A stretch of 64,000 bases of DNA from Paraburkholderia sp. BL23I1N1 (GTDB taxonomy: Bacteria; Pseudomonadota; Gammaproteobacteria; Burkholderiales; Burkholderiaceae): assembly GCF_003610295.1 (NCBI RefSeq), contig NZ_RAPV01000001.1, positions 4,340,001 through 4,404,000 on the forward strand, in the 5' to 3' direction. The notes beneath the pieces are model-generated. The model had not been told where the DNA came from and did no database searches. It worked only from the letters and a program-made list of their open reading frames with translations. Both the position numbers and the translations under genes were made by a program. Shown here in pieces: positions 43,452 to 62,871 of the stretch (positions within the stretch are counted from its first letter, which is position 1; every line of letters begins with the position of its first letter).

Positions 43452-43573
43452 GGACTTGGGTTAAAGGCACAGAGGACCGGGCGGCATGATCTTGTATTAT
43501 GCGGGTCGAAAACAGCGGCTTGATGCACATCAAGTCGGATATTGTCGGCACTATTGAAGGTATGGGGAGGACC

Positions 43574-45559: not shown

Positions 45560-47134
45560 CTACCTGGTGACCGCGTCCATAGTCCAAAAACGAAATACTC
45601 CTTTGCCCGCTTTCTTCGCGTCGTACAAGGCTTCATCAGCTCGCTTCTTCAACAGTTCAAGAGACTCATATTTCGTTGCGAAGGCAATGCCGATGCTTGC
45701 GCCGATTTTCACCGTCGCGCCCGCTGATAGCGGATAGGGTTCGGATAGCCGCTGGATAATACGCTGCGCAAGTGCGGCGGCGGAGGAAGTGGTTGAGTTC
45801 TCAAGAACAACGGCGAATTCGTCGCCGCCGATCCGCGCCACCAGCTTCCCTTGCCGCAATGTCCTGCGCAAGCGCTCCCCGACCATTTTCAGTACCTCGT
45901 CGCCCGCCGGGTGGCCAAAGCCGTCATTCACCTGTTTGAAGCCGTCCAGATCGAGATACATCACCGCCAATGCCGGGTCCTGATTGTCTGCGCACCGGGA
46001 AAGTAACCACTCCAGTTGTTCGCGCAGGTAGCGGCGGTTCGGCAGATCCGTTAGCACGTCGTGACGGGCCCACTCGAGCATTCTGGCCTCGGCGGTCCTG
46101 CGCTGCGTCACGTCCTCGATAATGATGACAGCACTTCCGTCAGGCACCGGGTTGCGGGTCATCTCGAGCTGGCGGCCGTCGTCGAATTTCAGATTGAGCG
46201 GACCGTGTTCCTCAGACAGCCATGCGGTGCATCGCTCGACAAGCTCCTTTCGGAGCGCTTCGCCATACTTCGCCAGCGCTACCTGACCGATCAACTGCGG
46301 GAGTGGGACATTAAGCTGCAGCATCTCGACGGGGGCGCCGAAAAGCTCTGCGGTTCGGCGATTGGCAATGATCACCTTCGCGGCGCTGTCGATGGTGCAC
46401 AGCCCGTGCGGCATATAGGCCAACGCCGCATCGAATTGGGCCGCAAGTTCAGCGTGCCTTTGTTCGGCCGTCATCAGGGCGACAAGCATCGCATAGTGGC
46501 GCCTGACCACCGAAGTCATCGCCGCAACGTACAGGCAAAGCGGTGGCACCAGAATCCACATCGCGCTACGGGAGGCGATCAGCCCGGCCAGTCCAATGGG
46601 AATCGCCCCCAGGCAAATCTGCGCGATCGCCAGGCGGGGCAACGCCGCGTTTCTTGACGCTATTCCGCCTAGAATCCCGGCCGTCACCATGACGGCGAGC
46701 GCTGCCAGTTCGCCGTCATGGGACAGGATGCAACCCATCGTACCGAGGCCGAGCAGCAAGCAGGCCAGTAGCGAAGCCGGCACGTATCGGACAGCCCAGG
46801 GGGCAGGGTGAACCGTACCCGTACGGCTGCGCACGATGTAAGCACGAACGATCCCGAGCCGTGTTAGCAGGAGGCCAATATCCGTCACGAGCCATAGCTC
46901 GGCCCACGTCTGATGCAGACGGATCGCGGCTACGAGCGCAATGAAACCGCTTGCGACACCCGACATGACGAGCGGCCGTATGTTTTCAAAGAGCGTCGAC
47001 AGCAGTGACGAACGAACGGCGACCGTGACGTCGCCGTTGTGCGGCGCCGGCGTCGCAAGAATTGAAGCGAGAATGAATATCTTGCCGGGCATGTTATGAC
47101 CACATCTGAAATTTTCTGCCAGGCCGCGTCGCAT
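45560..47134 (-). CDS. Membrane diguanylate cyclase with MASE-like and PAS domains
   Basis: 524 residues (ATG 47134; a second ATG at 47092 is possible). Residues about 50-225 are a run of membrane helices (VMSGVASGFIALVAAIRL, ALAVMVTAGILGGIASRNAA); about 235-355 a PAS domain (YMPHGLCTIDSAAKVIIANR); about 360-520 a GGDEF domain with ARIGGDEFAVVLEN. The RxGD and GGDEF residues are intact. It makes cyclic-di-GMP in response to a membrane or PAS signal. An FNR-type box and a -10 TATAGT at the right distance lie upstream (47288-47301), suggesting control by oxygen. Confidence 0.9.
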   Translation of the reverse strand: MRRGLAENFRCGHNMPGKIFILASILATPAPHNGDVTVAVRSSLLSTLFENIRPLVMSGVASGFIALVAAIRLHQTWAELWLVTDIGLLLTRLGIVRAYIVRSRTGTVHPAPWAVRYVPASLLACLLLGLGTMGCILSHDGELAALAVMVTAGILGGIASRNAALPRLAIAQICLGAIPIGLAGLIASRSAMWILVPPLCLYVAAMTSVVRRHYAMLVALMTAEQRHAELAAQFDAALAYMPHGLCTIDSAAKVIIANRRTAELFGAPVEMLQLNVPLPQLIGQVALAKYGEALRKELVERCTAWLSEEHGPLNLKFDDGRQLEMTRNPVPDGSAVIIIEDVTQRRTAEARMLEWARHDVLTDLPNRRYLREQLEWLLSRCADNQDPALAVMYLDLDGFKQVNDGFGHPAGDEVLKMVGERLRRTLRQGKLVARIGGDEFAVVLENSTTSSAAALAQRIIQRLSEPYPLSAGATVKIGASIGIAFATKYESLELLKKRADEALYDAKKAGKGVFRFWTMDAVTR

Positions 47135-47339: not shown

Positions 47340-47762
47340 TCAATTCCGTGGCACCGCGTTCGCCGTTACGACTGCGACATGCGCGATGCCCGCATGACCG
47401 ATTCTGGCGAGCAGGTTCGCAACAGCGCCGAATGGTTGGCTTTGATCGGAACGCAGCTTCACCACGGTCCGTTCATCCTGCGCTGCGATGCGCCTGAGCG
47501 TCGGCTCCAGTTGGTCCGCGGCGATGTCGCGACCGTCGATCGTGAGCTTGCCGTGTGCATCGAGGCTGACTGTCACCGCGTGATCGCGCGCTTCGGGCGC
47601 GCTGGCTGCAACCCTTGGCAGATCGATATGCAGCGTTCTGGTCAACATCGGCGCCATGACCAGAAGAATCACGACGAGTACCAGCATGACGTCGACAAGC
47701 GGTGTGATGTTGATTTCAGCGAGCGGTTGGTCCGTGTCTTTTGCGTTCGAACGGGAAATCAT
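47340..47762 (-). CDS. exbD: ExbD/TolR-family protein
   Basis: 140 residues: short cytoplasmic N-terminus, one membrane helix (PLVDVMLVLVVILLVMAPML) containing the conserved Asp, and a periplasmic domain. The segment AEINITPLVDVMLVLVVIL is the ExbD/TolR signature. With ExbB and TonB it converts the proton gradient into force for TonB-dependent receptors. The start overlaps the exbB stop by 4 bp. Confidence 0.93.
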   Translation of the reverse strand: MISRSNAKDTDQPLAEINITPLVDVMLVLVVILLVMAPMLTRTLHIDLPRVAASAPEARDHAVTVSLDAHGKLTIDGRDIAADQLEPTLRRIAAQDERTVVKLRSDQSQPFGAVANLLARIGHAGIAHVAVVTANAVPRN

Positions 47763-48469
47763 GTGAGTACCTCCGCCCGATGAGCGCCCGTCACCGCGCG
47801 AAAACCGTTGCGTTGCGCAACGTTGACGAGATCCGCGGCGTAGTCCTCGAGATCGGCAATCGAGATGTGAACGCGGCGCACGAAGAGGTTATAGGCCAGT
47901 GCCGCGGGGATGGCGACGGCGATCCCGATTCCCGTCGCAGTCAGTGCTTGCCCGACCGGGCCGGCAACCCCTTCGATCCCGCTCGCGCTGCCCACAGCGA
48001 CTGCGTGCAGTGCATGGATAATGCCGAACACCGTGCCGAACAGGCCGATAAACGGCGCGGTGCTGGCAATCGATGCAAGCAGCGTCAAGCCGCGCTCAAG
48101 CGCGCGCCTTTCTCTCTGGATCTGCTGGTTCAGGAAGCGATCGAGCAATTCGTGGCGGTCCCAGGCCACGAATTCTGCATTGGCAGCTGTCATCTCCACT
48201 GGAGTGGTGCCCGACCACGCGGCGAAGCCGGCGCGCGCCACGCGCGCCTTCGGACACTCCGAAGCGTGCGTCGGGCTGCCTGGCATGCCCGACGGATCGC
48301 GCTCGGCGGCGCTCCAGAAAAGTGCCGTGAAGCGCCGGTTCTCAGAAGCAAGATGCCAGTACGCGCAGCCTTTGTACAAAATCAGCCACCACGTCAGCAG
48401 CGAACAGGCCGCGAGCAAGCAAAGCGAAGCGTCGACAATGAGCTGGGTGGCGAAGTCAGACATGTTCAT
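47759..48469 (-). CDS. exbB: ExbB/TolQ-family proton channel protein
   Basis: 236 residues from ATG 48469. Three membrane helices: about 10-30 (QLIVDASLCLLAACSLLTWW), about 130-155 (LASIASTAPFIGLFGTVFGI), and about 165-195 (GIGIAVAIPAALAYNLFVRR). TAPFIGLFGTVFGIIHAL and ATGIGIAVAIPAALAYN are the MotA/TolQ/ExbB signature. Two bases after the tonB stop; tonB-exbB-exbD form one transcription unit. Confidence 0.93.
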   Translation of the reverse strand: MNMSDFATQLIVDASLCLLAACSLLTWWLILYKGCAYWHLASENRRFTALFWSAAERDPSGMPGSPTHASECPKARVARAGFAAWSGTTPVEMTAANAEFVAWDRHELLDRFLNQQIQRERRALERGLTLLASIASTAPFIGLFGTVFGIIHALHAVAVGSASGIEGVAGPVGQALTATGIGIAVAIPAALAYNLFVRRVHISIADLEDYAADLVNVAQRNGFRAVTGAHRAEVLT

Positions 48470-48471
48470 GG

Positions 48472-49347
48472 TCAGGTTCCAAGTTTGAATTCGATGGGTA
48501 CCTGGACCCATCCATCGACCGGCAGAGCGCCACGGCGAGCCGGCGCAAAACGCCAGTTGGTGACGGCTTCGAGTGCCGCCTCATCGAGCGACTCGTGGCC
48601 GCTCGACGACGCGAGTCCGACGTGGTCTGGCCGGCCGCTGGCCAGCACGTGAACCTTGAGCATGACGGTGCCTTGCCAGCCGCGCTGTTGAGCCACGCCG
48701 GGGTAGGCCGGCGCAGGATTGCGCAGGTAAGCCGCGCCGAAGCTGGGTTCGGTGAGCGGTTCGGACGTCGGCTGGGCGTCCGGTGATGTTGCGGCCGATG
48801 CATTGCGTGGTTCGGGACCGGCGTCAGTCACCGTGGGCTGTGAAGTCGTAGCGGCGGGCGCGGGCTGCGGTTTCGATGCGTTGTTCGGCGCGATCTTCGC
48901 GAGCGGTTTCGATGGGGAAGCCTGAGTAGTGTTTCTCGGGGCAGCCATGTCTCTTGCACGGCGCGTCGAGGCCGAGGGCGCTGGCACGGGCGATGTCATA
49001 GCGGACGGCAGCTTGGCGGCGCGGTTTGCGGATTGCGTTGAAATCGCGGCCGGTAGCGCTACGGCAGCCGCTATGTCGAATTGCAGGTCGAGCACATGCG
49101 GCGCCGCGTATTCCTGCTTTTCCACCGACATACGCCAAACCTTGAGCGCTACCGTGCAATGGACAGCAAGCACGACTAGCGCGATGGCATGCGCGCGCGC
49201 TCCCCGAAGGTCGTTGAAAGCGCCCGTGGTGTACGGCGGCAGGCGGCTCGCTGCGACGCGCACCGGCGGGTTCGCCGCGGCGGCGCATTGCAGGCTGCGC
49301 AGCCTGCGCCGCGCCGCGTTTGCACCTTTCAGCGTTGAAGTGATCAT
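48472..49347 (-). CDS. tonB: TonB energy-transducing protein
   Basis: 291 residues from ATG 49347 (a GTG nine bases earlier is possible). One N-terminal membrane anchor (IALVVLAVHCTVALKVW), a Pro/Ala/Ser/Thr-rich spacer (residues about 90-210), and the C-terminal TonB domain with YPGVAQQRGWQGTVMLKVHV and NWRFAPARRGALPVDGWVQV. The order tonB-exbB-exbD faces away from a TonB-dependent receptor gene 318 bp off, suggesting a dedicated energising complex for that receptor. Confidence 0.9.
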   Translation of the reverse strand: MITSTLKGANAARRRLRSLQCAAAANPPVRVAASRLPPYTTGAFNDLRGARAHAIALVVLAVHCTVALKVWRMSVEKQEYAAPHVLDLQFDIAAAVALPAAISTQSANRAAKLPSAMTSPVPAPSASTRRARDMAAPRNTTQASPSKPLAKIAPNNASKPQPAPAATTSQPTVTDAGPEPRNASAATSPDAQPTSEPLTEPSFGAAYLRNPAPAYPGVAQQRGWQGTVMLKVHVLASGRPDHVGLASSSGHESLDEAALEAVTNWRFAPARRGALPVDGWVQVPIEFKLGT

Positions 49348-49665
49348 GCGCGCCACCCCCAGATTCTGATTGCCATTCGGATCGCAACATGCGTGCCGGT
49401 CGTGGCGACGAGCGTGCGGCGTTTGTGTGGATCGGGCGCGCTCCGAGGGTGTGTCTTAGGTGTCCCCGTTCGGAACACCGCCTGTACCAAATCGACACAG
49501 GTGTCACGTGAGCGAAGACAAGCGCGGTACAGCGTTCGACATGGCATCGCACTGCGTCGATGTCCGGCATCGATGTTGCTTGGAAGTGGGCACATCGGAA
49601 ATCGCGATCAAAGAACATACCGCGTACGGCCATGAAGCCGATGCGCGTCAGGACGGAGGAGACAC
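49348..49665. other. Divergent promoter region of tonB and the receptor
   Basis: No gene. A hairpin-like GGTGTCCC...CGGAACACC occurs near 49459-49479. No Fur-type AT-rich box was seen. The right end contains the receptor's GGAGGAG ribosome site. Confidence 0.45.
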
Positions 49666-51951
49666 ATGAAGTCGCATCGCGACGATTGGCGGCGCACGCG
49701 CATCGCCGCCGCCATAGCGGGCATGCTTGCTATGGCCCACGGTACTTGCGCAGTGGCGCAAGACGAACCCGCGCCGTCGCCTTCCCAGGTGATGCCGGTC
49801 GTAACCGTGGTGGGTACGGCGCCGCTTACCGGACTCGGTATGGCGCTCAATGAGGTGCCTGCCGCCGTGCAGATCGTCGAGGCGAAGGACATCGAGGCGC
49901 AACACCCGAATTCCATCACGGCCTACCTGGAGCAGAACGTCACCAGCGTGACGCTCAATTCGAGTCAGGGCAATCCGTATCAGCCGGACGTCAACTATCG
50001 GGGCTTCACCGCTTCGCCGCTCCTCGGCACACCCCAAGGCCTGTCGGTGTTCCAGGACGGCGTGCGGATCAATGAGCCGTTCGGTGACGTAGTCAACTGG
50101 GATCTGCTCGCACAATCGGCGATCGAGCGCATCGAGGTGATGCCCGGGTCCAATCCGCTATTCGGTTTGAACACGCTAGGCGGCGCTATCGCAATCACCA
50201 CAAAAAATGGCCGCGACAACCCCGGTGGCAGCGTTGAAGTGGAGGGCGGCTCGTTCGGACGCAGGAGTGTGGTCTTCACGCAAGGCGGCCAAATGGGACA
50301 CTTCGACTATTTCGTCACCGCCAACGATGAAGCCGATCAGGGTTGGGCCGACCACAATCCCAGCCGCGTGAAGCAGCTGTTCGGCAAGGTGGGCTATACG
50401 GACGCGCGCACCACCGTCGAACTGAGCCTCACCGCGGCCGACAATCAGTTGCAGGGTACCCAGACCATTCCGCGCTCGTTTCTCGGCAATCCACGCCAGG
50501 CCTACACGTATCCCGACGAAAACCAGAATCGCGCGGTCATGCTGACTTTGTCAGGCAAGCATGATTTCAGCGATGCGTTGCAGCTCTCCGGCGATGTGTA
50601 CTACCGGCACTACAACAACGACAATTTGAGTAGCAACGTCAATGGAGATTACGGCTCTATCGATCCGGCGGCCGGCGCGATCGACACCGTCCCCGCGCAA
50701 AACTCGCACTCCGTGATCTCGCAGGACAGTTATGGATTCGCATTGCAATTGAGCGTCACCGGCAAAGTCGCGGGGATGGACAACCAGTTGATGGCAGGTG
50801 TCAGCGGCGATTTTGCCAACACCGGCTTCACGCAGTACTCGCAGGATGCGCAGTTCGCCGCGGATCGCCAGACCGTCGGGACCGACGGCTACACCCTGCA
50901 AACCGATGCATCCACACGCAACGGCAACCTCGGAGTATTCGTCACCGACACGCTTTCGTTGACCCGCTCGATTGCGCTGACGGCCTCCGCGCGCTACAAC
51001 CACGCTAGCGTCGATATCGAGGATCGCAGCGGTATGCAGCCCTTGTTGAACGGCTCGCACAGTTTTTCGCGGATCAATCCGGCGCTCGGCGTGACCTATA
51101 ACCCGCTCCCCTGGCTGACGGCTTATGCCAATTACAGCGAGGGCGCGCGTACGCCGACCGCTATTGAGCTGGCCTGCGCCGATCCGGCCGCGCCCTGTTC
51201 GCTGCCGAACGACTTTATTGCCGACCCTGCGTTAAAGCCGGTCGTATCGCGCACGTTTGAGGCGGGCGCCCGTGGAACGCTATCGTCGGCAATTCATTGG
51301 AGTGTGGCATTGTTCCGCACCGATCTCCACGATGACATATCTTTTGTCAGCAGCAACGGGGCGGCGACCTCGACCGGGTATTTCCAGAACGTCGGCACCA
51401 CGCGGCGGCAGGGGTTCGAAATCAACACACGTGCACAGACCGGTCCGCTTACCGTGAACGCAGGCTATACCTATCTGCGCGCAACCTATCAAAGCAGCTT
51501 TGTCGAGCAAAGTGCGAGCAACTCGAGCGCCAACGGCCAAGGCAACATTACGGTACACCCGGGCGACCGTATTCCCGGCATGCCGGAAAATACGCTGAAG
51601 CTGCGTCTGGACTATGCGGCTACCGCGAAATGGAATGTGGGTGCAAATATTCTGTATCGCAGCTCGATATTTGCCCGTGGCGACGAGAACAATCAGGACA
51701 GCAATGGGCGTATCGCGGGCTACGCAATCATCGATCTCGACACGACCTATCAGGTCACGAAGCAACTGCAGCTATTCGCGCATGTGAACAATCTGTTCGA
51801 CAAACGCTACGCCGACTTCGGCATCCTCGGGCAGAATTTTTTCAATGGCCCCGGTCATTCGTTCTCGCCCGATACGGCGACCAACGAACAGTTTCTCGGT
51901 ATGGGCGCGCCGCGTGGCGTATGGGTTGGTTTGCGCTATGCGTGGAATTAA
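49666..51951 (+). CDS. TonB-dependent outer-membrane receptor
   Basis: 761 residues. Signal peptide [20 protein letters not shown] with cleavage near AVA-QD; TonB-box-like [11 protein letters not shown]; plug domain with [40 protein letters not shown]; then a long barrel ending in [10 protein letters not shown]. No extra N-terminal signalling domain, so it is a plain transporter. The ligand is not evident. Its place between a private TonB system and a PQQ/lanthanide-type alcohol oxidation cluster suggests PQQ, a lanthanophore or another metal chelate (inference). Its stop at 51951 overlaps the abnormal 3' extension of the convergent aldehyde dehydrogenase gene. Confidence 0.9.
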
Positions 51952-53548
51952 AGCGGGGATGTGGGCGGCTTGGAAAAACTACTTGTCTGGAGCGGGTCTC
52001 ACACCGCTCCAGATCCGTACGTAGTGGGTTAGAAGAAACCAGAGGCTGCTCGCTATAGCTGACGAGCAGATTCTTGGTCTGCTGATAGTGGTCGAGCATC
52101 ATCTTGTGGGTTTCGCGACCAATACCGGACTGCTTGTAGCCACCGAATGCCGCATGCGCCGGATAAGCATGGTAACAATTCGTCCACACGCGGCCTGCCT
52201 GAATCTGACGGCCGAAGCGATAGGCGCGCGTGCCGTCGCGCGTCCACACGCCGGCGCCGAGACCGTAGAGCGTATCGTTGGCGATTTCGAGCGCTTCCTC
52301 TTCGTTCTTGAATGTCGTCACCGACACGACCGGACCGAAGATTTCTTCCTGGAAGATGCGCATCTTGTTGTGGCCACGGAAGACGGTCGGCTTCATGTAG
52401 TAGCCTTTGCTCAGTTCGCCGCCCAGCGTATTTCGTTCGCCGCCGATCAGGCACTCAGCGCCTTCCTGCTTGCCGAGATCGACGTACGAGAGGATCTTTT
52501 CGAGCTGTTCCTGCGAAGCCTGCGCGCCGATCATCGTCTGCGTGTCGAGTGGATGTCCCTGCCTGATTGCGGCGACGCGCTTCAGGGCACGTTCCATGAA
52601 GCGATCGTAGATTTTTTCATCGATCAGTACACGCGATGGGCACGTGCACACTTCACCCTGATTTAGCGCAAACATAGCGAAACCTTCGAGCGCTTTGTCG
52701 AAATAGCCGTCGTCGCGATCCATCACGTCGGCGAAGAAAATGTTCGGGCTCTTGCCACCGAGTTCGAGCGTCACCGGGATGATGTTCTGACTCGCATACT
52801 GCATGATCAGGCGCCCTGTGGAGGTCTCGCCGGTGAAGGCAATCTTCGCGATGCGCTTGCTCGACGCGAGCGGCTTGCCGGCTTCGAGGCCAAAACCGTT
52901 GACTACGTTCAGCACACCCGGCGGCAGCAGGTCCTGGATCAGTTCCATCAACACCAGGATCGACGCAGGAGTTTGCTCGGCAGGCTTGAGCACGATGCAG
53001 TTCCCCGCGGCCAGCGCGGGCGCCACCTTCCATACTGCCATCAGGATCGGGAAGTTCCACGGAATGATCTGACCGACCACACCAAGCGGCTCGTGGAAAT
53101 GATAAGCCACGGTATCGGCATCGATCTCGGAGAGCGTTCCTTCCTGTGCGCGAATGCAACCGGCGAAATAGCGAAAGTGGTCGATCGCAAGGGGGATGTC
53201 GGCGGCGAGCGTTTCGCGGATCGGCTTGCCATTGTCGATCGATTCGGCGAACGCGATGCGCGAGAGGTTCTGCTCCATGCGGTCCGCAATACGGTTCAGG
53301 ATCGTCGCGCGCACGGCCGGCGCGGTATCGGCCCAGGCTTTGCGGGCGCGATGGGCGGCATCGAGGGCGAGTTCGATATCTTCTTCTGTCGAGCGTGGGA
53401 TCGACGTGAAGGCTTCGCCGGTGATGGGCGATACGTTGTCGAAGTATTCGCCGCGTACCGGCGCAATCCATTGGCCGCCAATGAAATTGGCGTACTGCCG
53501 CGCGTACGGAAATTCGACGTCGAGAAACTGCATATCTGCGTGGTTCAT
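51842..53548 (-). CDS. exaC: ExaC-type NAD-dependent aldehyde dehydrogenase, frameshifted at its end
   Basis: From ATG 53548 (GGAGGA upstream). The catalytic Glu262 is in LELGGK and Cys301 in [11 protein letters not shown]; the family fold is complete. It oxidises acetaldehyde or similar aldehydes made by the adjacent alcohol dehydrogenase. Family members are 506 residues and end in GFF. Here codon 503 is followed by GGTTTCTTCTAA read one base out of frame, so the protein continues to 568 residues, running antisense over the receptor gene. Restoring one G gives exactly 506 residues ending PLGFF with stop at 52029-52031. A sigma-54 promoter lies 102 bp upstream. Confidence 0.9.
52029..52050 (-). 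other. Frameshift site at the end of the aldehyde dehydrogenase gene
   Basis: On the minus strand the reading is CCT CTG GTT TCT TCT AAC; one additional G gives CCT CTG GGT TTC TTC TAA. The change is in a short G run (GG versus expected GGG). It could be a real mutation or a sequencing error. Confidence 0.8.
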
Positions 53549-53649
53549 GCCTGACTCCTCCAATGATTGTGTGACTGGTGTCGATGGAGACCGCCCGCGT
53601 TGGCTCGACGTATCCGCCGTGCTGACACCCTTCATCGTGCGGGGCATTC

Positions 53650-53665
53650 AGCGAGAAGCGTGCCA
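53650..53665 (-). promoter_or_regulatory. Sigma-54 promoter of the aldehyde dehydrogenase gene
   Basis: Minus strand TGGCACGCTTCTCGCT: consensus TGGCACG-N4-TTGC with one mismatch (TCGC) and the invariant GG and GC exactly ten bases apart. It lies 102 bp upstream of the ATG at 53548, giving a leader of about 90 nt. Confidence 0.8.
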
Positions 53666-53827
53666 TTTGGTCCTGTTTGCGTCGCGGCAGGCGTCAGGCG
53701 ACCTCAGATGTCGACCACCACGCGCGACGCATACGTCGCAGCGAGTGGATCGCCTCCACGTGCCGCTTGCTACGTCCGTGAGGTAACTGTCATTTTTAGC
53801 AACACATCTTCGCTCGACTGCGCCAGC

Positions 53828-53846
53828 GTGCAACACCGGTTGTCAC
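53828..53846. promoter_or_regulatory. Candidate activator site between two sigma-54 promoters
   Basis: GTGCAACACCGGTTGTCAC is an imperfect dyad (TG-AACA / TTGTCA). It lies about 77 bp upstream of the alcohol dehydrogenase -24 element and about 160 bp from that of the aldehyde dehydrogenase, distances usual for sigma-54 activators. A related dyad occurs upstream of pqqA (60601-60619). Tentative. Confidence 0.35.
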
Positions 53847-53922
53847 TCCGCGATGACCGTGTAATCGCGTAGCAGCGCCCCTCCTTATGATCCGCGACGG
53901 TTCGCGGCAGCGCCACTGCCAA

Positions 53923-53938
53923 TGGCACGCGACTTGCC
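53923..53938 (+). promoter_or_regulatory. Sigma-54 promoter of the PQQ alcohol dehydrogenase gene
   Basis: TGGCACGCGACTTGCC matches the full -24/-12 consensus (TGGCACG-N4-TTGC). The expected start is near 53949, giving a leader of about 74 nt to the ATG at 54023. Confidence 0.9.
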
Positions 53939-54022
53939 TTGAATGGTCAGCAGCCAGTCTGCGTTCACTAGACGATGGCGCCGCCGCACGGCCTCGCGTC
54001 GACAACTCAACAGGAGACAAGG

Positions 54023-55750
54023 ATGAAAGCACGTTTAACTTCGGCGACGCGGCCCAAGGCGCTTGCGATGGGTGTGGCCGCCGCCGTCAGTCTGATACTG
54101 GGGTCGGCCGCAGTAGCCGACGACTATCCCGCCGTCACCTACGAGCGTTTGACGGACGCACAAAGCGACCCGGGTTGGCTCACGTATTACCGTACCTATA
54201 ACGGTCAGGCGCATTCGCCGCTCAAGCAGATCGACGCAGCCAACGTCAAGAACCTCAAACAGGTATGGAGCTACAAGTTTCCGGCGGACCTGCAGCAGGG
54301 CTTCGAAGCGACACCAATTGTGAATGGCCGCTACCTGTTCGTCACCACGCCGAAGGACAACGTGTATGCATTCGACGCCGTAACAGGCAAACAACTCTGG
54401 AAATTCGAGCCCAAGCTCGGCGCGGAATCGTTCAAGACCGCGTGTTGTGACGTGATTAACCGCGGCGTGGCGTTGTACGGCAAGAACGTCTATGTCGCGA
54501 TGCTGAGCGGTGACGTCGTCGCGCTCGACGCAAAGACAGGTGCGCTCGTTTGGCGCAAGCAGATGTTCGAGCCGGGTCTGGGTTACGCGTTCTCCCTTGC
54601 GCCGCTCGCGCTCGACGGTGCGTTGGTGGTGGGCAGTGCGGGCGGAGAGTACGGCGCGCGCGGCTTCATCGCGGCATTGAATCCTGACGATGGCAACGTG
54701 ATCTGGAAGCGCTTTACGGTACCCGCTGCCGGCGAGAAGGGTGGCGATTCATGGCCGAACGGCATGCAGGAACATGGCGGTGCACCGGCCTGGCTGACGG
54801 GCACCTATGACGCCGCATCGAAAACGCTTTACTGGGGCGTCGGCAACCCAGGGCCATGGCTTGCCGATCTGCGGCCGGGAGACAACCTGTATTCCGACTC
54901 GCTTCTCGCACTCGACCCCAAGACCGGCAATCTCAAATGGCATTACCAGTACACGAAACATGACACATGGGACTACGACGGCGTCAATACGCCGGTGCTT
55001 GCCAAGATCAAGTACCAGGACAAGGATTACGACGCGATTATCCATGCGGACCGCAACGGCTTTTTCCACGCGATCGACCGCACGACCGGCAAGCTGATCT
55101 ACGCGAAACCCTTTGTCACGGCGTCGTCGGTCACAGGCTATACGGCGGACGGCTCGCCGATCCAGGACGCGTCGAAATATCCAAAGGCCGGCACCACGAT
55201 CGAAACCTGTCCGAGTTTCCTCGGTGGCAAGAACTGGTGGTCGGTTTCGTACGATCCGGACAAGCATCTCGCGATCGTTCCCGCTCTGCATGCGTGCATG
55301 TCGCTCTCCGGCAAGTCGGTGAACTACATGGAAGGCCTGCCGTACCTTGGCGAAGGGTTCGAGATCAAACCGGAGCCCGGCAGCAAGGGTTATGGCGAGC
55401 TGCAGGCGATCGACGTCGACACCGGCAAGAAAGTCTGGAGTCACTGGAGCAAGCTGCCGTGGAATGGCGGCGTAGCGACGACGGCGGGCGGCCTCGCGTT
55501 TAGCGGTTCGCTCGACGGCCACCTGTATGCATTCGATGAGGCGACCGGCAAGGTGTTATGGCAGAGCCCGAAACTGGCCAGCGGGATCGTTGCTCAACCG
55601 TCGGTGTTCGAAGTCGACGGCCAGGAGTACGTCGCCATTCTTGCCGGTTACGGCGGTGCCAACCCGATCTGGGGTGGTCCGATGGCGAAGGCTGCGGAGA
55701 AGGTCCCACGCGGCGGCACGCTGTACGTGTTTGCGCTCAACCACGGCTGA
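54023..55750 (+). CDS. PQQ-dependent alcohol dehydrogenase, lanthanide type by signature
   Basis: 575 residues from ATG 54023 (AGGAGA). Signal peptide to about residue 32 (GSAAVA-DD). An eight-bladed quinoprotein with tryptophan-docking repeats such as VYAFDAVTGKQLWKFEP and LYAFDEATGKVLWQSPK; vicinal Cys141-Cys142 in KTACCDVI. Metal ligands Glu209 (GGEYG), Asn275 (VGNPGPW) and catalytic Asp317, with the extra Asp319 in TWDYDG that marks lanthanide-dependent enzymes (XoxF, PedH/ExaF), where calcium enzymes have Ala or Ser. It oxidises methanol, ethanol or other primary alcohols in the periplasm, passing electrons to the cytochrome encoded next. Which alcohol is preferred cannot be told. Confidence 0.9.
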   Translation: MKARLTSATRPKALAMGVAAAVSLILGSAAVADDYPAVTYERLTDAQSDPGWLTYYRTYNGQAHSPLKQIDAANVKNLKQVWSYKFPADLQQGFEATPIVNGRYLFVTTPKDNVYAFDAVTGKQLWKFEPKLGAESFKTACCDVINRGVALYGKNVYVAMLSGDVVALDAKTGALVWRKQMFEPGLGYAFSLAPLALDGALVVGSAGGEYGARGFIAALNPDDGNVIWKRFTVPAAGEKGGDSWPNGMQEHGGAPAWLTGTYDAASKTLYWGVGNPGPWLADLRPGDNLYSDSLLALDPKTGNLKWHYQYTKHDTWDYDGVNTPVLAKIKYQDKDYDAIIHADRNGFFHAIDRTTGKLIYAKPFVTASSVTGYTADGSPIQDASKYPKAGTTIETCPSFLGGKNWWSVSYDPDKHLAIVPALHACMSLSGKSVNYMEGLPYLGEGFEIKPEPGSKGYGELQAIDVDTGKKVWSHWSKLPWNGGVATTAGGLAFSGSLDGHLYAFDEATGKVLWQSPKLASGIVAQPSVFEVDGQEYVAILAGYGGANPIWGGPMAKAAEKVPRGGTLYVFALNHG

Positions 55751-55841
55751 TGTTTACCAGACTGCCACGACGGTCTGCCCAGCGCGACATTTGCGCAGGA
55801 CGTCCAGCCGTGGTGGCCTGGTCTTTCCCGGAAGCATGATC

Positions 55842-57074
55842 ATGAAAACCCGACTCAATTCGTTCGCTCTCGCCGGTATGCTGCTGGCTACGGGCACACT
55901 TACACCAGGTCTCGCTAACGCGGGTGTGCGCGTTTGCACGTTTCCCGGCAGTCCATCGACCGCGCTTGACGAAGCTGTGACGCGCGAAGCGTTTCGCACG
56001 GCGGGTATTGCGTTGTCGCTCGCGCCCGGAGGATTCGACGGGAGCGACGACGATGGCGTATCCCTGAAGGAACTCAACAAGGCGCTTGCGCGTAAATGCG
56101 ACGTCATTGCCGGCTTTCCGCGCTCGAGCGTCGCCGATGGATCCGGCAGCAAGCTGACTTTCTCACGCGGCTATCTGCACTCCGGCTACGTGAGCGTCAC
56201 TACCCGAGAATCGTCAACGCCGTCCAGCGGCGAGGAGGTCGTCGCGGCAACTTATGCGAGCCCCGCGCAGCTTATCGCCGTGCAGCAACCCAATGTCAGA
56301 CTCGATCTGGAGAACACGGCGGCGCTCACCGTCGATGCCCTGGCCAGCGGACATGCGCAACGCGCAATCGTCTGGTATCCGGCGGTGGTGGCATATACGA
56401 TCACACATCCGCAGCAGCACTTCCAGATTACGGGCACGGTTTCGCCGTATGCGGACTGGCAACTGGTATTCGCTTTTGGCAAGAACGGCGCGGCGTTGCA
56501 ACCGCGCGTCGACGCAGCGCTGGAGAAGATGGCGTCGAACGGCAGGCTCGCAGCGTTGACCCGCAACTGGACGCTGCCCGAGGCGGCTCAGGCAGCCCGT
56601 TCGCCCGCGGCCGCATTTGCCTATCGAGAGGGCCCCGGCCGCAGCGATACGATGTGGCGAATGATGCTGGCAGGCAGTCGCGGGTCACAGCAGGGCCGCT
56701 TCATCAAGGTCGATGCAAGCGCAGCGGGCGACGCCCCTGGCTTCGACCGCACGCAGGTGGCGCACGGCAAAACCCTGTACTCGAGTGCGTGCGCAAAATG
56801 CCACGGTCCCGGCCTGCAAGGTTTGAATGCGCCGGCGTTGCGTGGTCCTGCCTTTGCTCCGGCGGCAAACGCGAAACTGACCATTGGCGGGGTGTACGGA
56901 TACATGGCGAACAATATGCCGGCGGACCGCCCCGGCAAGATGAAACCGCAGGACTACGCTGACATTATGGCATTCCTGCTGTATTCGAACGGCTATAGCG
57001 CCGGCGCCACCAAGCTGACGGACGACAACGCCAAGGCGTCGAAGACGCCGCTCAACGCGGGCACTTCGCAATAG
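55842..57074 (+). CDS. XoxJ/MxaJ-like binding protein fused to a c-type cytochrome
   Basis: 410 residues from ATG 55842 (GGAAG seven bases before). Signal peptide (LNSFALAGMLLATGTLTPGL-ANA). Residues about 30-265 are a periplasmic-binding-protein domain like the MxaJ/XoxJ family (RVCTFPGSPSTALDEAVTRE, KCDVIAGFPRS). Residues about 300-395 are a class I cytochrome c with SSACAKCHGPGLQG (Cys317, Cys320, His321) and a Met ligand probably in NNMPADRPG. In methanol-oxidising bacteria the binding protein (J) and cytochrome (G) are separate; here they are one chain. It would activate and then accept electrons from the dehydrogenase. 91 bp after the dehydrogenase gene, same strand. Confidence 0.85.
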   Translation: MKTRLNSFALAGMLLATGTLTPGLANAGVRVCTFPGSPSTALDEAVTREAFRTAGIALSLAPGGFDGSDDDGVSLKELNKALARKCDVIAGFPRSSVADGSGSKLTFSRGYLHSGYVSVTTRESSTPSSGEEVVAATYASPAQLIAVQQPNVRLDLENTAALTVDALASGHAQRAIVWYPAVVAYTITHPQQHFQITGTVSPYADWQLVFAFGKNGAALQPRVDAALEKMASNGRLAALTRNWTLPEAAQAARSPAAAFAYREGPGRSDTMWRMMLAGSRGSQQGRFIKVDASAAGDAPGFDRTQVAHGKTLYSSACAKCHGPGLQGLNAPALRGPAFAPAANAKLTIGGVYGYMANNMPADRPGKMKPQDYADIMAFLLYSNGYSAGATKLTDDNAKASKTPLNAGTSQ

Positions 57075-57114
57075 TCTCGAGAGCTTCAACGGTCTTGATT
57101 GGCGCCATAAAAAT

Positions 57115-57154
57115 AGCCCGGTGAGTCTCCGTTGTTCACGGGAATCACCGGGCT
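57115..57154. terminator. Bidirectional terminator
   Basis: AGCCCGGTGA and TCACCGGGCT form a 10-bp stem with a 20-nt loop. TTTCTC follows on the plus strand, and on the minus strand a T-rich ATTTTTAT follows. It separates the dehydrogenase unit (+) from the pqq operon (-). Confidence 0.8.
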
Positions 57155-57189
57155 TTCTCGAAGTCTCAAAGCCGCAACTTCCTCCGAAA

Positions 57190-58326
57190 TTATCCCAAAC
57201 GCAGCGAGTTATCCCTGCTGCGGAAAATCAGCGGCTGGACCTGGTCGTCACGTGCCGTTCGCCGCGCCAGCGTGACCACCTGCTCGATTTGCCCGTGATG
57301 CGCTGACTTCGCGCACACCGGGTCCGTGGCCGCGGCGTCTCCGGTCAGCAGATACGCCTGGCAGCGGCAGCCGCCATGATCGGTTTCGCGCTCGTCGCAG
57401 CTCCTGCATGGCTCGCGCATCCAGCCATCACCACGAAACGCATTGAACGCATGACTGTGGTACCAGATATCCGCCAGCGAAGCGTCCTGCACGCGGGGCA
57501 GATCCAGACCCGGCAGCGAGCGTGCCGCATGGCATGGCAGCGCGGTGCCGTCCGGCGCGATGCCGAGAAACACTGAACCCCACCCGTTCATGCAGGCCTT
57601 GGGTCGTACTTCGAAATAATCAGGGACCACGAACAGGATCCTGCAACGATCGCCGACGCGTTCGCGGTACCGGTTGACTGTCGCCTCGGCCTCCTTCAAC
57701 TGTTCGCTGGTCGGCATCAACTGGTCGCGATTGAGCATCGCCCAACCGTAGTACTGTGTGTTCGCCAGTTCGAGATAGTCGGCGCCCATCTCGAGCGCCA
57801 TGTCGATAATCTGTCCGACGTGCGGCAGGTTATAACGATGCAGCACGCAATTGAGCACCATCGGGTAGCCGTATGCCTTGATCAGGCGCGCTACGCGGTG
57901 TTTCAGCTCGAAGGTCTTCGTGCTGGACACGAAATCGTTCAGTTCACGCGTCGAGTCCTGGAAGGAGAGCTGGATATGGTCCAGCCCCGCCTCTTTCAGA
58001 CGGGCGATGCGTGTCTCGTTGAGCCCGACACCTGAGGTAATCAGATTCGTATAGAAGCCCAATTCACGCGCATGCTCGACCAGCGTTTCGAGATCGTCAC
58101 GCACGAGTGGCTCGCCGCCGGAGAAGCCAATCTGCGCTGCGCCCATGCGGCGCGCCTGCGTGATCACGTCTTGCCAGGTGTCGGTATCGAGCTCTGCGCC
58201 GTGACTGGCGAAGTCGACGGGGTTGTAGCAGAACGCGCAGTGCAACGGGCAGCGGTACGTGAGTTCCGCCAGCAACCACAATGGAGGGGAAGGGCGAGTG
58301 CCTGAAAAGTCGATTGTCGTATCCAT
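57190..58326 (-). CDS. pqqE: PqqE radical-SAM peptide cross-linking enzyme
   Basis: 378 residues from ATG 58326. Radical-SAM motif CPLHCAFC (Cys26, Cys30, Cys33) and a SPASM-type auxiliary cluster region near the end ([36 protein letters not shown]). PqqE links Glu and Tyr of PqqA, the first committed step in PQQ synthesis, with PqqD as peptide chaperone. It follows pqqD by 1 bp. The upstream extension of the frame to 58524 overlaps pqqD and is not used. Confidence 0.97.
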
Positions 58327-58327
58327 G

Positions 58328-58609
58328 TCAATCCAGCCAGCCGCGTTGCCGCGCATGGTCGATAAAGCGGTATACATCGGCAGCAAGATTCGACACGCTG
58401 AACAGGTCTTCCAGTTCGTCGATGATGTCGTCCAGTTCCCGGGTTCCGTCGCAGCGCGCGAGAATTTCTCCCGCACTCGGATTGAGTTTGACCATGCCTT
58501 CCGGATACAGCAATACGTAGGCATCCTGTGCGTCTTCCCATTGCAGGCGAAACATCGCGCGCAGATGCGGCCGCAGGTTGACGTAGTGATCGGGGTGTGG
58601 GGCGTTCAT
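58328..58609 (-). CDS. pqqD: PqqD peptide-binding chaperone
   Basis: 93 residues from ATG 58609, overlapping the pqqC stop (ATGA). [20 protein letters not shown] and [20 protein letters not shown] are PqqD (RiPP recognition element) signatures. It binds PqqA and presents it to PqqE. Confidence 0.95.
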
Positions 58610-59325
58610 GCCGGGTACGCCTTTTCGATGGCATCGAGCATCGACCAGAGAATGTCTAGCTTGAAGCGCAGGATGTTGAGGGCACGCTGTTGGGCGTCGG
58701 GGGTCTTGAAGTGACTGAGCGTGACGTCGAGCCCATGCTCGACATCGCGCTGGGCAAGCGGAATGCGGCTGCGGAAGTACTGCAATCCCTGCGCGTCGAT
58801 CCATGGATACAGGTCGGGCCAGCCGGCCAGACGGTCGCGGTGAATCTGCGGCGCGAACATCTCCGTGAGCGAAGAGCAGACCGCCTCCTGCCACGGCGCC
58901 CGGCGGGCGAAATTGACATAGGCGTCCACTGCGAAGCGCACGCCGGGCTGCACGTGCTCGAGCGACCACAATGCCTTGCGCTCGATGCCGACCGCGTCGG
59001 CGAGATGCGCCCATGCTTCAATGCCGCCGGGATTGTCGCCGTAGCCGTCGTGGTCGTGCAGCCGCTCGATCCAGAGGCGGCGCGTCTGCCGGTCCTCGCA
59101 ATTGGACAGGATCGCGGCATCTTTCAGGGGGATGTTGATCTGGTAATAGAAGCGGTTGGCGACCCAGCCACGAATCTGCTCAGGCGAGCACTGGCCACTA
59201 TTCATCCGTAGATTGAACGGATGATGAATATGATAGTGTGCGCCGAGCGCGCGTAGACGCGCTTCGAATTCGTCCGGCGACCAGGGGACGGCGTGGGTAA
59301 CAGCGTTAGGCAGCGGGGCGTTCAT
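58606..59325 (-). CDS. pqqC: PqqC, final oxidase of PQQ synthesis
   Basis: 239 residues from ATG 59325. [40 protein letters not shown] and [20 protein letters not shown] are PqqC signatures with the substrate-binding His, Tyr and Arg. The cofactorless enzyme performs the last ring closure and eight-electron oxidation to PQQ. Overlaps pqqD by 4 bp. The upstream part of the open frame (to 59511) overlaps pqqB and is not coding. Confidence 0.97.
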
Positions 59326-59327
59326 GG

Positions 59328-60251
59328 CTATACCTGGAATTGCATGCCGTCGCGTGCCACTTCGATACCGCGTGCGCGTATCACGGCATGTTCGGGGGAA
59401 TGCGGGTCGAGAATCGGATTGGTGTTGTTGATGTGAATCAGCACCTTGCGCGTCGCAGTCGGCAGCGCGTCCAGCAGCTGAACCATCCCTGACAAACCGC
59501 GATGCCCGCACTGTGCGAGATGGCCCATGTCGGCCGCGAGGTGGGTCGACAGGCCAAGCTCGATCATCTCGGTTGCAGACCAGAACGTGCCGTCGACCAG
59601 AACGAGTTGCGCAGAACGCATCGCGGCGAGCACAGGTTCCGGCGCGTTCGCGAGCCCCGGCGCATAGAAAACGCGTGCACCGGTAGCAAGGTTCTCGATC
59701 ACGAGTGCGATATTGTCGCCAGGTGCGGCTTGGGCGCGGCGCGGCGAGTAGGGCGGTGCCTTGCTCTCGATCGGCAACGCGGTGAAGCGGATGCCCTCAA
59801 CCGGCGCGACCGTGAATGGTTGATCGAGCACGATCTCGTGACGTTCGACGCCGCAGTAATGGTCGAGCAGCGGAACCAGCGGCAAACCCGTGGAGAGATC
59901 GGCGAACACCGGTGCGCAGGCATACAGCGGCAGGGGCGTGGTGCGTTCGCGCAGCATCAGCAGACCGGTGACGTGATCGATCTGCGCGTCAATCAGCACG
60001 ACCGCGGCAATGCCGCTGTCACGAATCGAGCGGCCGGGTTGCAGTTCTGGATTTGCGCGCAACTGTGCGAGCAGATCCGGTGAGGCATTGATCAGAATCC
60101 AGTCGACGCCGTTCTCGCTTACCGCTATCGAAGATTGGGTGCGCGGCAACACGTCACCAGTCTGGTAACGGGCCCGGTTACAGTTCAGACAGTTGCAGTT
60201 CCATTGCGGCAGTCCGCCGCCTGCACCCGAACCTAGAATTTTGATCTTCAT
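59328..60251 (-). CDS. pqqB: PqqB metallo-beta-lactamase-fold oxygenase
   Basis: 307 residues from ATG 60251 ([20 protein letters not shown]). The zinc-type Cys cluster [10 protein letters not shown], the metal site region [11 protein letters not shown] and [19 protein letters not shown] are present. PqqB hydroxylates the Tyr part of the intermediate. Two bases before the pqqC start. A 12-codon upstream extension is not used. Confidence 0.96.
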
Positions 60252-60265
60252 GAGCCATGCTCCGG

Positions 60266-60308
60266 GCGCCGCCGCGCACACTGACATACTGCGATGGGCG
60301 GGCGGCGC
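60266..60308 (-). other. Hairpin between pqqA and pqqB
   Basis: GCGCCGCC (60266-60273) pairs with GGCGGCGC (60301-60308). In pqq operons the short pqqA message is typically more abundant than the rest; a stem here could stabilise the pqqA 3' end or attenuate read-through. Confidence 0.5.
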
Positions 60309-60320
60309 TTCATCGTTGCT

Positions 60321-60395
60321 TCAGCGATTGGCGATATACATCGTGATTTCAAAACCGAAGCGCAGATCGGTATAGGCGGGGGTGGTCCATTGCAT
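60321..60395 (-). CDS. pqqA: PqqA, precursor peptide of PQQ
   Basis: 24 codons, [20 protein letters not shown] and four more residues. The Glu16-xxx-Tyr20 pair that becomes the PQQ skeleton is present. Ribosome site AAGGAGACAATC precedes the ATG at 60395. First gene of pqqABCDE; transcribed from the sigma-54 promoter 66 bp upstream. Confidence 0.97.
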
Positions 60396-60460
60396 GATTG
60401 TCTCCTTGGATACGACATGTGATTGAGGAACCGCATCGAGGAAGCGGTCATATTGATCAA

Positions 60461-60477
60461 ATGCAAGGTCTATGCCG
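60461..60477 (-). promoter_or_regulatory. Sigma-54 promoter of pqqABCDE
   Basis: Minus strand CGGCATAGACCTTGCAT: invariant GG and GC ten bases apart and a perfect TTGCA half, with three mismatches in the -24 half. It is 66 bp upstream of the pqqA ATG, giving a leader of about 55 nt. Confidence 0.75.
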
Positions 60478-60600
60478 GGCTGGTCACGTGCTGCGATCGA
60501 TACCGCTGACGCACGAGTAGCGTTTTGTGCCCCGAACGAAAGCGTCGTTGGACATTGACTCACGTTTTGATGAGGAAAACTGACTAACCAGTCCGGCGCG

Positions 60601-60619
60601 TGAAACAACGCACTGTTCA
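60601..60619. promoter_or_regulatory. Candidate activator site upstream of pqqA
   Basis: TGAAACAACGCACTGTTCA is an imperfect dyad (TGAAACA/TGTTCA), about 125 bp upstream of the pqqA -24 element. It resembles the dyad at 53828-53846. Tentative binding site for the adjacent sigma-54 activator. Confidence 0.35.
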
Positions 60620-60667
60620 GTTCGAGGACACCGCTGTTGCAAATTGGAGCACCTGTGACGCAACCGG

Positions 60668-62641
60668 TCAGACGGCGTCGTCGGCGTTGTCCATACCTTG
60701 CTGCGGTAGTTTGCGATAGATCGTATTGCGCGAGACGCCTAGTGCGCGGGCGGCAGCCGACACGTTGCCGCCATGCTGCGCGACCGCCTTGGCGATGGCG
60801 TTGGCGGCGACGTCCTCCAGCCGCCCGCTTGATAGCGGTAAGGTTTCCATGATGCTCACAGGCGCGGCGGCAGTGCCGCGCACGTCGTCGAAGAAATCGT
60901 CGGGCAAATGCTCGCGCCGGAGCTGGCCGTCCGCATCGACCATGGCGGCGGCGGTTCGCAGGAGATTGCTGAGCTGGCGAAAATTACCGGGCCACGCGCA
61001 TTGCTCGAACAGCGCCATCACCTCGTCGGCGACGCTCAGTCGCTGCCCGTCAGCGCTTTCGGAGGATGCGGATTGCAGCATCTTTTGAATGACGGCGGAT
61101 AGATCCGTGCGCTCGCGCAGCGGCGGCAATTTCACCACCAGTCCGTTCAGGCGGTAATACAGGTCCTCGCGAAACCGGTTCTGCACGATCATGTCGCGCA
61201 GGTCGCGGTGAGTTGCGCAAATGATGGCGATATCGACCGGTATCGACTTCGAGGAACCAAGCGGATTGATGAGGCGCTCCTGCAGCACGCGCAGCAAGCG
61301 CACTTGCAGCGGATAGGGCATGTCGCCGATTTCGTCGAGAAATAGCGTGCCGCCGTTGGCCTGAAGCAGTTTGCCGACGGCGCCTTTGCGCCGCGCACCG
61401 GTGAAGGCGCCTTCTTCATAGCCGAACAACTCGGATTCGATCAGCGTTTCCGGTATCGACGCGCAGTTAACCGCAACGAACGCCCCCGAGCGGCGCGGCG
61501 AGTCGTTGTGGATCGCCTGGGCCAGCAGTTCCTTGCCGGTACCGGTCTCACCGGTGATCAGGATCGGGATGTCCTTGCCGATTACCTTGCGGACTTTGGC
61601 GATGACGGCTGCGATCTGAGGGTCCCCGGTGTCCAGATAGCTGAGTCTCGATAGCACGCTCGCGGCGGGGGGAGAGGACGCCACGCGTTGTGAGGGGCGT
61701 GACTCACGATGCCCCTCCGGCGGCCAGGCATCATTGGTGCGCGTGGCACGCCGGAATTCGACGTGAGCGCATACCACTGCGCCGTTGTTCAGGTTCAGCG
61801 ACAGATGCTGGTCCCGGCTGACGCGCAGACGGTCGATCAGTTGCGCGCTGGTGAGGCCGAATAGCGAGGACAGGGTATGCGCGCGCAAGCTGGTGAGCGG
61901 CAATCCCAGTTGAAATTGCGCACTACGATTGGCCGACAGGAAACGGCCATCGCAGGTAAACGCGACGATGCCTTCCATCAAGGTGCCGAGAAATTCGGGC
62001 CGGCCGTGAAAGGCAATTTGCAGTGTCTCGCGAAAGGTATTGGTAAACAGATGATTCTCGATCATCTGGACGGACATCTTTGCCAGCGCCAGGGTGTGCT
62101 GGTGATAGCTGCGATGGTCGCCGGTGACGTCGAGCACGCCGATCAGATCGCCGTACGGATCCAGGATCGGCACGCTGGAACAGGTGAGAAAGCGATTGGC
62201 AGCCAGATAGTGCTGTTCGCCATGCACGACTGTCGGACAGCGCTCGGCGAGCGCCGTGCCGATTGCGTTGGTGCCTTGCCGGTCTTCCGCCCAGTTCGCG
62301 CCCGGACGCAGCGCGACTTTTTCGGCTCGCCGGAGAAAATCGTCGTCACCGATCGAGTGAAGAATCAACCCTTCAGCGTCGGTCAGCACAATCATGCTCT
62401 GCGTGTTGACGATCTGCTCGTGCAGCGTTTCCATCACGGGCGTGGCATGCGCACACAGGACGCGGCTTTGCTCTAGTTTCAAGGTGAGTTCGGCTGCCGG
62501 CAGCACGTCGTAATCCGGCCGCATCGCGGCGCTCAATCCGAACGTTTCGGAGCGTTCGTGAGATTTCTGAATCGACGGCGTGAGCCAGCCGGCCTCACGA
62601 GTCGCCATTGGCGTTACGGCGTGACCGACATCATCGCGCAT
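60668..62641 (-). CDS. Sigma-54-dependent activator, AcoR type
   Basis: 657 residues from ATG 62641 (AGGAGGAGACA). N-terminal GAF-like sensor (residues about 60-205; [20 protein letters not shown] is an AcoR-family signature) and a PAS-like segment; AAA+ domain with Walker A GETGTGKE (364-371), sigma-54 contact loop GAFTGA (411-416) and Walker [13 protein letters not shown]-terminal Fis-type helix-turn-helix ([20 protein letters not shown]). AcoR-type activators respond to small alcohol/aldehyde-related signals such as acetoin. Next to pqqA and with sigma-54 promoters in front of three neighbouring units, it is the evident activator of the cluster. Confidence 0.93.
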
Positions 62642-62871
62642 TGTCTCCTCCTGCTGGTCTGCCCCGGTCGCTTCGCCGGAGTCGTGCGGGTACAACTGTG
62701 GGTACAACTATAAGCAAATCCTGCGCCAGATCGACTGTAATCGCGCACCGGCAGAACGTCTTCGCCTTTGTTTCGCCGTGACGGGGCGCTCGGATCGAGC
62801 CGCTTAGCCGCAGCCGCAGCCGCTCTGGCGATGCGCGATTACGCATATTCATCCCGATACGCGTAGGCGGC
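62642..62871. other. Upstream region of the activator gene
   Basis: No coding frame accepted. It probably holds the promoter of the activator gene. A weak -10-like GAATAT on the minus strand lies near 62850, about 28 bp from the centre of the FNR box at 62872-62885. Confidence 0.4.

Follow-up and report, generated by a model that had tools for sequence, protein, structure and literature searches.

Several described systems share parts with a gene cluster, predicted to oxidise alcohols in the periplasm, that lies in a 64,000-nucleotide stretch of Paraburkholderia sp. BL23I1N1 (contig NZ_RAPV01000001.1, positions 4,340,001 to 4,404,000; hereafter the window), part of a 9.1-Mb genome. In Azospirillum, exaA is reportedly under sigma-54 together with a LuxR-type regulator. 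The ped cluster of Pseudomonas putida responds to rare-earth elements (REEs) through the two-component system PedS2-PedR2 and has an ATP-binding cassette (ABC) transporter, PedA1A2BC, for lanthanide (PMC12997753). In the same species, AcoR stands beside butanediol/acetoin genes, and PedE and PedH oxidise (2S,3S)-butanediol (PMC8427195). Methylacidiphilum has XoxGJ (cytochrome cGJ), a XoxG-like cytochrome fused to a XoxJ-like binding protein, with a lanthanide enzyme as its partner (PMC8498564, PMC6688271). The TonB receptors LutH and LanA are reported to be critical to methanotrophs for taking up lanthanum (PMC12482762), and four Burkholderiales genomes carry PqqU adjoining pqq genes (PMC12124388).

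The cluster in the window resembles ped (PedH, PedE, PedI, pqqD-II) in having a pyrroloquinoline quinone (PQQ)-dependent alcohol dehydrogenase (ADH) with the lanthanide-associated aspartate, an ExaC-type aldehyde dehydrogenase (ALDH), apparently co-regulated pqq genes and a solute-binding protein (PMC12997753). It differs in its AcoR-type sigma-54 activator, fused binding-protein/cytochrome and TonB system, whereas ped is described with PedS2-PedR2 and the ABC transporter. A quinoprotein alcohol dehydrogenase under sigma-54 is also what is reported for Azospirillum (title of Singh et al. 2017), but the regulator there is of LuxR type, while the activator here has GAF, AAA+ and Fis helix-turn-helix (HTH) domains and a site class of its own. 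Those domains are also those of the AcoR acetoin activators, from which this protein differs in being linked to an alcohol-oxidation set. As in XoxGJ, a cytochrome/binding-protein fusion is the apparent partner of a lanthanide-type enzyme; XoxGJ, however, serves a XoxF methanol dehydrogenase in Verrucomicrobia and is written XoxG:J; in the present protein the cytochrome follows the binding-protein part. For the TonB system the described counterparts are LutH, LanA and PqqU, receptors whose uptake function goes with lanthanide or PQQ enzymes (PMC12482762, PMC12124388), although the receptor here lacks the signature residues of PqqU, and LutH and LanA were compared by description only. An earlier reading of the window (the original prediction) had held its regulation to be unlike that of Pseudomonas. 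The activator here is of AcoR type, where Pseudomonas has PedS2-PedR2; control by sigma-54 is not in itself new, and it and a similar fusion have been reported elsewhere (Azospirillum; Verrucomicrobia). The open-licence literature that we searched (listings and passages) held no description of this regulon.

We propose that these genes probably form a local, sigma-54-dependent regulon with which Burkholderiaceae oxidise alcohols in the periplasm, run by an AcoR-type activator from 17-bp sites. The genes, the conserved promoters and sites, and the co-occurrence of activator and enzyme are read directly from the sequence. Because the promoters are conserved, the site is common to the units and AcoR co-occurs with the ADH, control by sigma-54 and AcoR is, as a prediction, well supported.

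What speaks most strongly for AcoR serving the ADH is that the two co-occur and lie close together. We surveyed 200 genomes of the family and found the ADH (E 1e-200) in 53. A relative of AcoR of at least 73% identity was present in 51 of these 53 and in 3 of the 147 ADH-free genomes, and AcoR lay 20 kb or less from the ADH in 50 of the 53 and on another contig in the other three. Two ADH genomes (G438 and G460) instead have a linked AcoR relative of about 65-66%, and at a cut of 64% the counts become 53/53 and 5/147; G508 shows a second AcoR row at 64%. The window's own genome holds a second copy elsewhere, 54% identical. An AAA+ domain of the kind that interacts with sigma-54 and a Fis HTH give the protein the make-up of a bacterial enhancer-binding protein. 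Its name is carried over from the original prediction; no library gave it.

From left to right, the order is exbD-exbB-tonB (minus), TonB receptor (plus), ALDH (minus), ADH and fusion gene (plus), pqqEDCBA (minus), AcoR (minus) and a Usp gene, with pqqA the first gene of the pqq set in reading direction. The features are:

47340..47762, minus strand: exbD (PF02472, 91 bits)
47759..48511, minus strand: exbB (PF01618, 102 bits)
48472..49347, minus strand: tonB (PF03544, 82 bits on the open reading frame from an upstream GTG at 49356; the ATG start at 49347 was picked by eye)
49383..49398, minus strand: -24/-12 site before tonB, CGGCACGCATGTTGCG (sequence position)
49461..49477, plus strand: candidate activator site TGTCCCCGTTCGGAACA, flanked by tonB and the receptor gene (score 15.8)
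49565..49580, plus strand: -24/-12 site before the TonB receptor, CGGCATCGATGTTGCT, 87 bp past the activator site
49666..51951, plus strand: TonB-dependent receptor (PF00593, PF07715)
51842..53548, minus strand: exaC-type ALDH (NF050026, 946 bits, cut-off 900)
53650..53665, minus strand: -24/-12 site before the ALDH, TGGCACGCTTCTCGCT, conserved in relatives
53788..53804, plus strand: candidate activator site 1, TGTCATTTTTAGCAACA (17-bp model)
53819..53835, plus strand: candidate activator site 2, TGCGCCAGCGTGCAACA, between ALDH and ADH (17-bp model)
53923..53938, plus strand: -24/-12 site before the ADH, TGGCACGCGACTTGCC, conserved in relatives
54023..55750, plus strand: PQQ-dependent ADH, PedH-like, with D-Y-D (TIGR03075, 551.8 bits, cut-off 480)
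55842..57074, plus strand: fused XoxJ/MoxJ-like binding protein and cytochrome c, 410 aa (PF13442; weak TIGR03871 match under cut-off; structure model)
57190..58326, minus strand: pqqE (TIGR02109, 543 bits, over cut-off)
58328..58609, minus strand: pqqD (TIGR03859, 118 bits, over cut-off)
58606..59325, minus strand: pqqC (TIGR02111, 335 bits, over cut-off)
59328..60251, minus strand: pqqB (TIGR02108, 386 bits, over cut-off)
60321..60395, minus strand: pqqA, 24 aa, E-x3-Y present (read from the sequence)
60462..60477, minus strand: -24/-12 site before pqqA, CGGCATAGACCTTGCA, conserved in relatives
60614..60630, minus strand: weaker candidate activator site before pqqA (score 9.5)
60635..60651, minus strand: candidate activator site TGCTCCAATTTGCAACA before pqqA (score 18.6)
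60668..62641, minus strand: AcoR-type sigma-54 activator with GAF, AAA+ and Fis HTH (PF00158, 228 bits; PF02954, 41 bits)
62713..62728, minus strand: -24/-12-like site before the activator gene, TGGCGCAGGATTTGCT (TGGCGC-N5-TTGC), with no activator site nearby

The ALDH, PQQ-dependent ADH, pqqABCDE and sigma-54 activator that the original prediction had named are all present where it placed them, by library matches over cut-offs, by domains and, for pqqA, by sequence. Its separate cytochrome and binding protein are in fact a single fused polypeptide, and it had left out the TonB receptor and tonB-exbB-exbD (47340-51951), a leftward extension of the set with -24/-12 sites.

A -24/-12 promoter has GG-N10-GC in a TGGCAY/TTGC context. 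We fetched 80 relative loci, some of whose stretches end at contig ends, giving 81 ADH regions with the window, and scored such sites in up to 300 bp upstream of orthologues, with 20 shuffles each. Sites scoring at least 12.5 preceded the ADH in 80/81 regions (shuffle mean 7.5), the ALDH in 16/16 (1.9), pqqA in 33/34 (2.45), AcoR in 69/74 (5.7) and the TonB receptor in 25/31 (3.65), whereas the comparison genes fell under their shuffles (fusion gene 2/80 vs 5.7; Usp gene 0/7 vs 0.45). On the tonB side, CGGCACRCATGTTGCG recurs in 9/9 window-type regions, window included. The consensus is kept at orthologous places, and the promoters proposed earlier before the ALDH, ADH and pqqA thereby recur far above shuffles; since the species are related, these counts are not independent events. 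The distant loci of G438 and G460 have -24/-12 sites before the ADH, ALDH and receptor, and their pqq genes had none of score 13.5 in the expected place.

Upstream of the ADH, a 17-bp model trained on these regions gave the pattern TGTnCC-N5-GCAACA. A candidate site of this kind precedes the ADH, ALDH and pqqA, and also the neighbouring TonB receptor and tonB-exbBD. It is found in 80/81 ADH regions, twice in 76/81, a count that is circular because the model was trained there; the ALDH regions with a site (15/16) are mostly DNA common with the ADH regions. For pqqA, 19/34 regions score at least 10 as against 0/34 in one shuffle, and 29 as against 3 score at least 8. All nine window-type receptor regions score at least 14, and 5 of the 31 receptor regions (L048, L056, L057, L060, L063) score under 8. 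In many Burkholderia/Paraburkholderia loci the receptor is divergent from the ADH and shares its sites, with a promoter of its own, TGGCACGGTTCTCGC or similar; at L034 it occupies another position in the locus and has its own sites. The distance from site to promoter in the window is 87 bp for the ADH, 87 bp for the receptor and 157 bp for pqqA. G438 and G460 have 17-bp sites before the ADH and ALDH.

Under the proposed control, the AcoR-type protein would sense alcohol or aldehyde through its GAF domain and bind the TGTnCC-N5-GCAACA sites. With sigma-54 RNA polymerase it would activate the -24/-12 promoters of the ADH and fusion genes, exaC and pqqA-E and, in the window's clade, those of the TonB receptor and tonB-exbB-exbD as well. 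PqqA-E would make PQQ, and the PedH-like enzyme would oxidise alcohol in the periplasm, with a lanthanide dependence and substrate that we infer. Electrons would pass from the ADH to the cytochrome half of the fusion, ExaC would oxidise the aldehyde, and the TonB system would import something needed by the system. Diols or acetoin may be the ligands of AcoR here. It is possible, if doubtful, that one alcohol-responsive activator jointly switches on PQQ synthesis, the lanthanide ADH with its fused acceptor, and TonB uptake of lanthanide (probably as a chelate), such that substrate rather than metal commands acquisition. The cluster would provide a concrete regulatory map for lanthanide-type alcohol oxidation in Burkholderiaceae, with one activator, one 17-bp site and five to six promoters, and would point to a receptor by which non-methylotrophs may take up lanthanide.

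The ADH scores over the curated cut-off of the PQQ methanol/ethanol dehydrogenase family (TIGR03075). Its best match in the PDB is 6zcw (entry name quinoprotein ethanol dehydrogenase), which we take to be PedH of Pseudomonas putida, and it is 40-42% identical to homologues in g260 genomes, presumably Pseudomonas. The active site reads HDTWDYDGVN in the ADH, HDGWDFDGVN in 6zcw and DAWDFSGNN in 1flg (ExaA, calcium-type). The extra aspartate two residues past the catalytic one (D-x-D), a signature of the PedH/ExaF/XoxF type, is present, and the lanthanide-type enzyme of the original prediction is borne out at this level: D-Y-D, as compared with D-F-D in PedH and D-F-S in ExaA. The D-x-D pattern was matched in 117 of the 120 listed homologues; by eye, the remaining three are D-Y-D (P0043, P0116) and G-Y-D (P0027). 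Among the 80 loci, a pattern containing D-Y-D was matched in 77 and not in 3. At this position PedE has a serine and PedH an aspartate, and the aspartate is tied to lanthanide binding (PMC5487730). We therefore predict a lanthanide-dependent ADH.

An unlikely alternative is that the signature comes without the dependence, the enzyme using calcium and the receptor importing an iron chelate unrelated to the ADH. Lanthanide use is indeed read from sequence, several receptor homologues are named iron-complex receptor in their sources, and unlinked receptor copies are without sites; yet D-Y-D is the very residue change that divides PedH from calcium-type PedE and ExaA (PMC5487730), and the linked receptor of window-type loci has a conserved site and promoter of its own. 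Lanthanide-chelate import is, as a guess, the most natural reading of this receptor.

The receptor was present in 49/53 ADH genomes and 15/147 ADH-free ones; of the former, 30 had it no more than 20 kb from the ADH, 19 had a homologue elsewhere and 4 had none at E 1e-200. Expecting paired sites before the remote copies in ADH genomes too, we scanned 900 bp for the 17-bp site and the last 450 bp for the promoter. One of the 19 had the 17-bp site alone (L194) and one a -24/-12 score of 12.5 alone; in the 15 ADH-free genomes there was no 17-bp site (0/15), a -24/-12 score of at least 12.5 in 4/15, and paired sites in 0/15. As remote copies are without paired sites, the co-occurrence overstates the link, and only linked receptor copies appear to belong to the regulon. 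We rejected the possibility that the receptor is PqqU. In NCBIfam, PqqU ranked third with 145 bits (cut-off 1200), and the published signature, Y/F/W99, R304 and R365 in E. coli numbering (PMC12124388), was found in 0/30 receptors aligned to E. coli PqqU: column 99 is L or V, column 304 has a gap or one of I, V, T, L, A and P, and column 365 is a gap in 30/30. Two receptors have an arginine 3 columns or fewer from 304, and one does so for 365; at 24-25% identity, the loop columns of this alignment are uncertain. The window's own genome has pqqA-E, and by the signature its receptor is different from the PqqU of the four Burkholderiales genomes.

A second alternative accepts the -24/-12 sites as working promoters but assigns the 17-bp sites to a different regulator, with AcoR in control of part of the set only. 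Several results speak for it or otherwise weigh against our proposal. The AcoR gene itself is without a 17-bp site, and its activation by its own product through such a site found no support, with scores of at least 10 in 6/74 AcoR regions as against 3/74 shuffled. Three genomes of one genus (G436, G467, G476; stretches L169-L171) have AcoR at 74-76% and no ADH at E 1e-200, and their 17-kb stretches around AcoR held no match to the ADH, fusion or receptor. ADH-free G442 and G428 have AcoR relatives of 65%, a level close to that in G438 and G460, and at E 1e-180 some AcoR relative occurs in 100/200 genomes. Among the pqqA regions, 15/34 stay below 10, and 5 of these also fall below 8. The ADH at L017 has neither element upstream, and paired sites precede 0/19 of the remote receptors in ADH genomes. 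In the window's own genome, a strict form of the site, narrower than the score model and missing the first ADH site, gave 23 matches, as against 21 for a reverse-pattern control, which is chance level. Against this second alternative stands the tracking of the ADH by AcoR, at 73% identity and within 20 kb, and we regard it as quite improbable. That GC-rich intergenic DNA yielded the promoters by chance is hardly credible: the window holds 16 matches of score at least 13, which makes promoters in a single sequence weak evidence, but conservation at orthologous places, in loci as distant as about 77% in ADH identity and far above the shuffles, already contradicts it.

Three of the 23 strict matches sit in the cluster, with -24/-12 sites at the same 87, 87 and 157 bp. 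We also looked for a wider regulon among the other 20 and rejected it: a -24/-12 score of 13 was reached within the next 200 bp in 1 (L120) and of 12.5 in 2 (L136, L138).

In the fused protein, the cytochrome c domain (PF13442) is C-terminal and the binding-protein part N-terminal. An AlphaFold2 model built with 47 sequences had a mean predicted local distance difference test score (pLDDT) of 72, weak to moderate in the cytochrome part and better in the binding-protein part. Its N-terminal part matched amino-acid-binding proteins (Foldseek E ~1e-12), and the weak, sub-threshold MoxJ-type match (TIGR03871) agrees with this fold. This chain, which joins a binding-protein fold to a c-type cytochrome and is encoded next to a lanthanide-type ADH, has the architecture of a XoxGJ-type fused acceptor, a role that we predict for it. 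The ADH is followed by a match to both parts in 77/80 loci; L082 has the cytochrome part only, L078 ends at a contig end, and at L026 the parts are apart. There the binding-protein part (263-1015), which has a separate -24/-12 site, TGGCACACGACTTGCC, precedes pqqB, and the cytochrome part (6878-7330) follows the ADH, possibly an unfused state or a rearrangement. Among 399 genomes of the order, with four candidates scored per genome, a full-length fusion match was found in 2 (G000, G285), and three others (G153, G023, G114) gave matches to fusion residues 41-367 with internal stops. One genome of the same class and another order (G1249; ADH 51%) has a 490-aa open frame with the same two parts after the ADH, and no other query protein, AcoR included, matched in its 19.9-kb stretch (E 1e-4). 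Because this pair occurs with no AcoR match nearby, the enzyme-fusion pair may predate the AcoR link, as far as one genome can tell.

Among the named loci listed, the closest is that of Paraburkholderia madseniana (ADH 98% identity; records very near the window were possibly left out). Sequenced strains of P. madseniana and P. ginsengiterrae are examples that have the complete layout. Within the fetched stretches of the 80 loci, AcoR of at least 60% identity was present in 73, pqqB in 34, the receptor of at least 55% in 31 and the ALDH of at least 70% in 15, and in many relatives pqq or the ALDH is not near the ADH. In the distant layout of G438 and G460 (ADH 77%), the receptor, ADH, fusion, pqqB-E, AcoR and ALDH are all kept. 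The original prediction had described a self-contained island and suggested looking for the same order in related genomes. The gene set does recur across the family, in arrangements that differ among loci, and island is not supported as worded; nor is self-contained, given the TonB system with the same sites and the relatives in which pqq or the ALDH lies away. Its observation is thus confirmed and extended, and its interpretation partly supported.

In many Caballeronia/Paraburkholderia loci (L031, L033, L037 and others like them), a candidate pqqD match lies between AcoR and the ADH with no other pqq gene in the stretch. The ALDH frame of the window shifts in its last codons (51842-52060, minus strand), and the open reading frame continues beyond its normal stop, into the 3' end of the receptor gene; all 13 relatives examined end in PLGFF-stop, and the window's end is either a sequencing error or a recent change. 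To the left of the cluster, a weak IS110-type transposase match, below the Pfam cut-off, spans 42489-43451, and GGDEF proteins lie close to it at 43499-45094 and 45560-47134.

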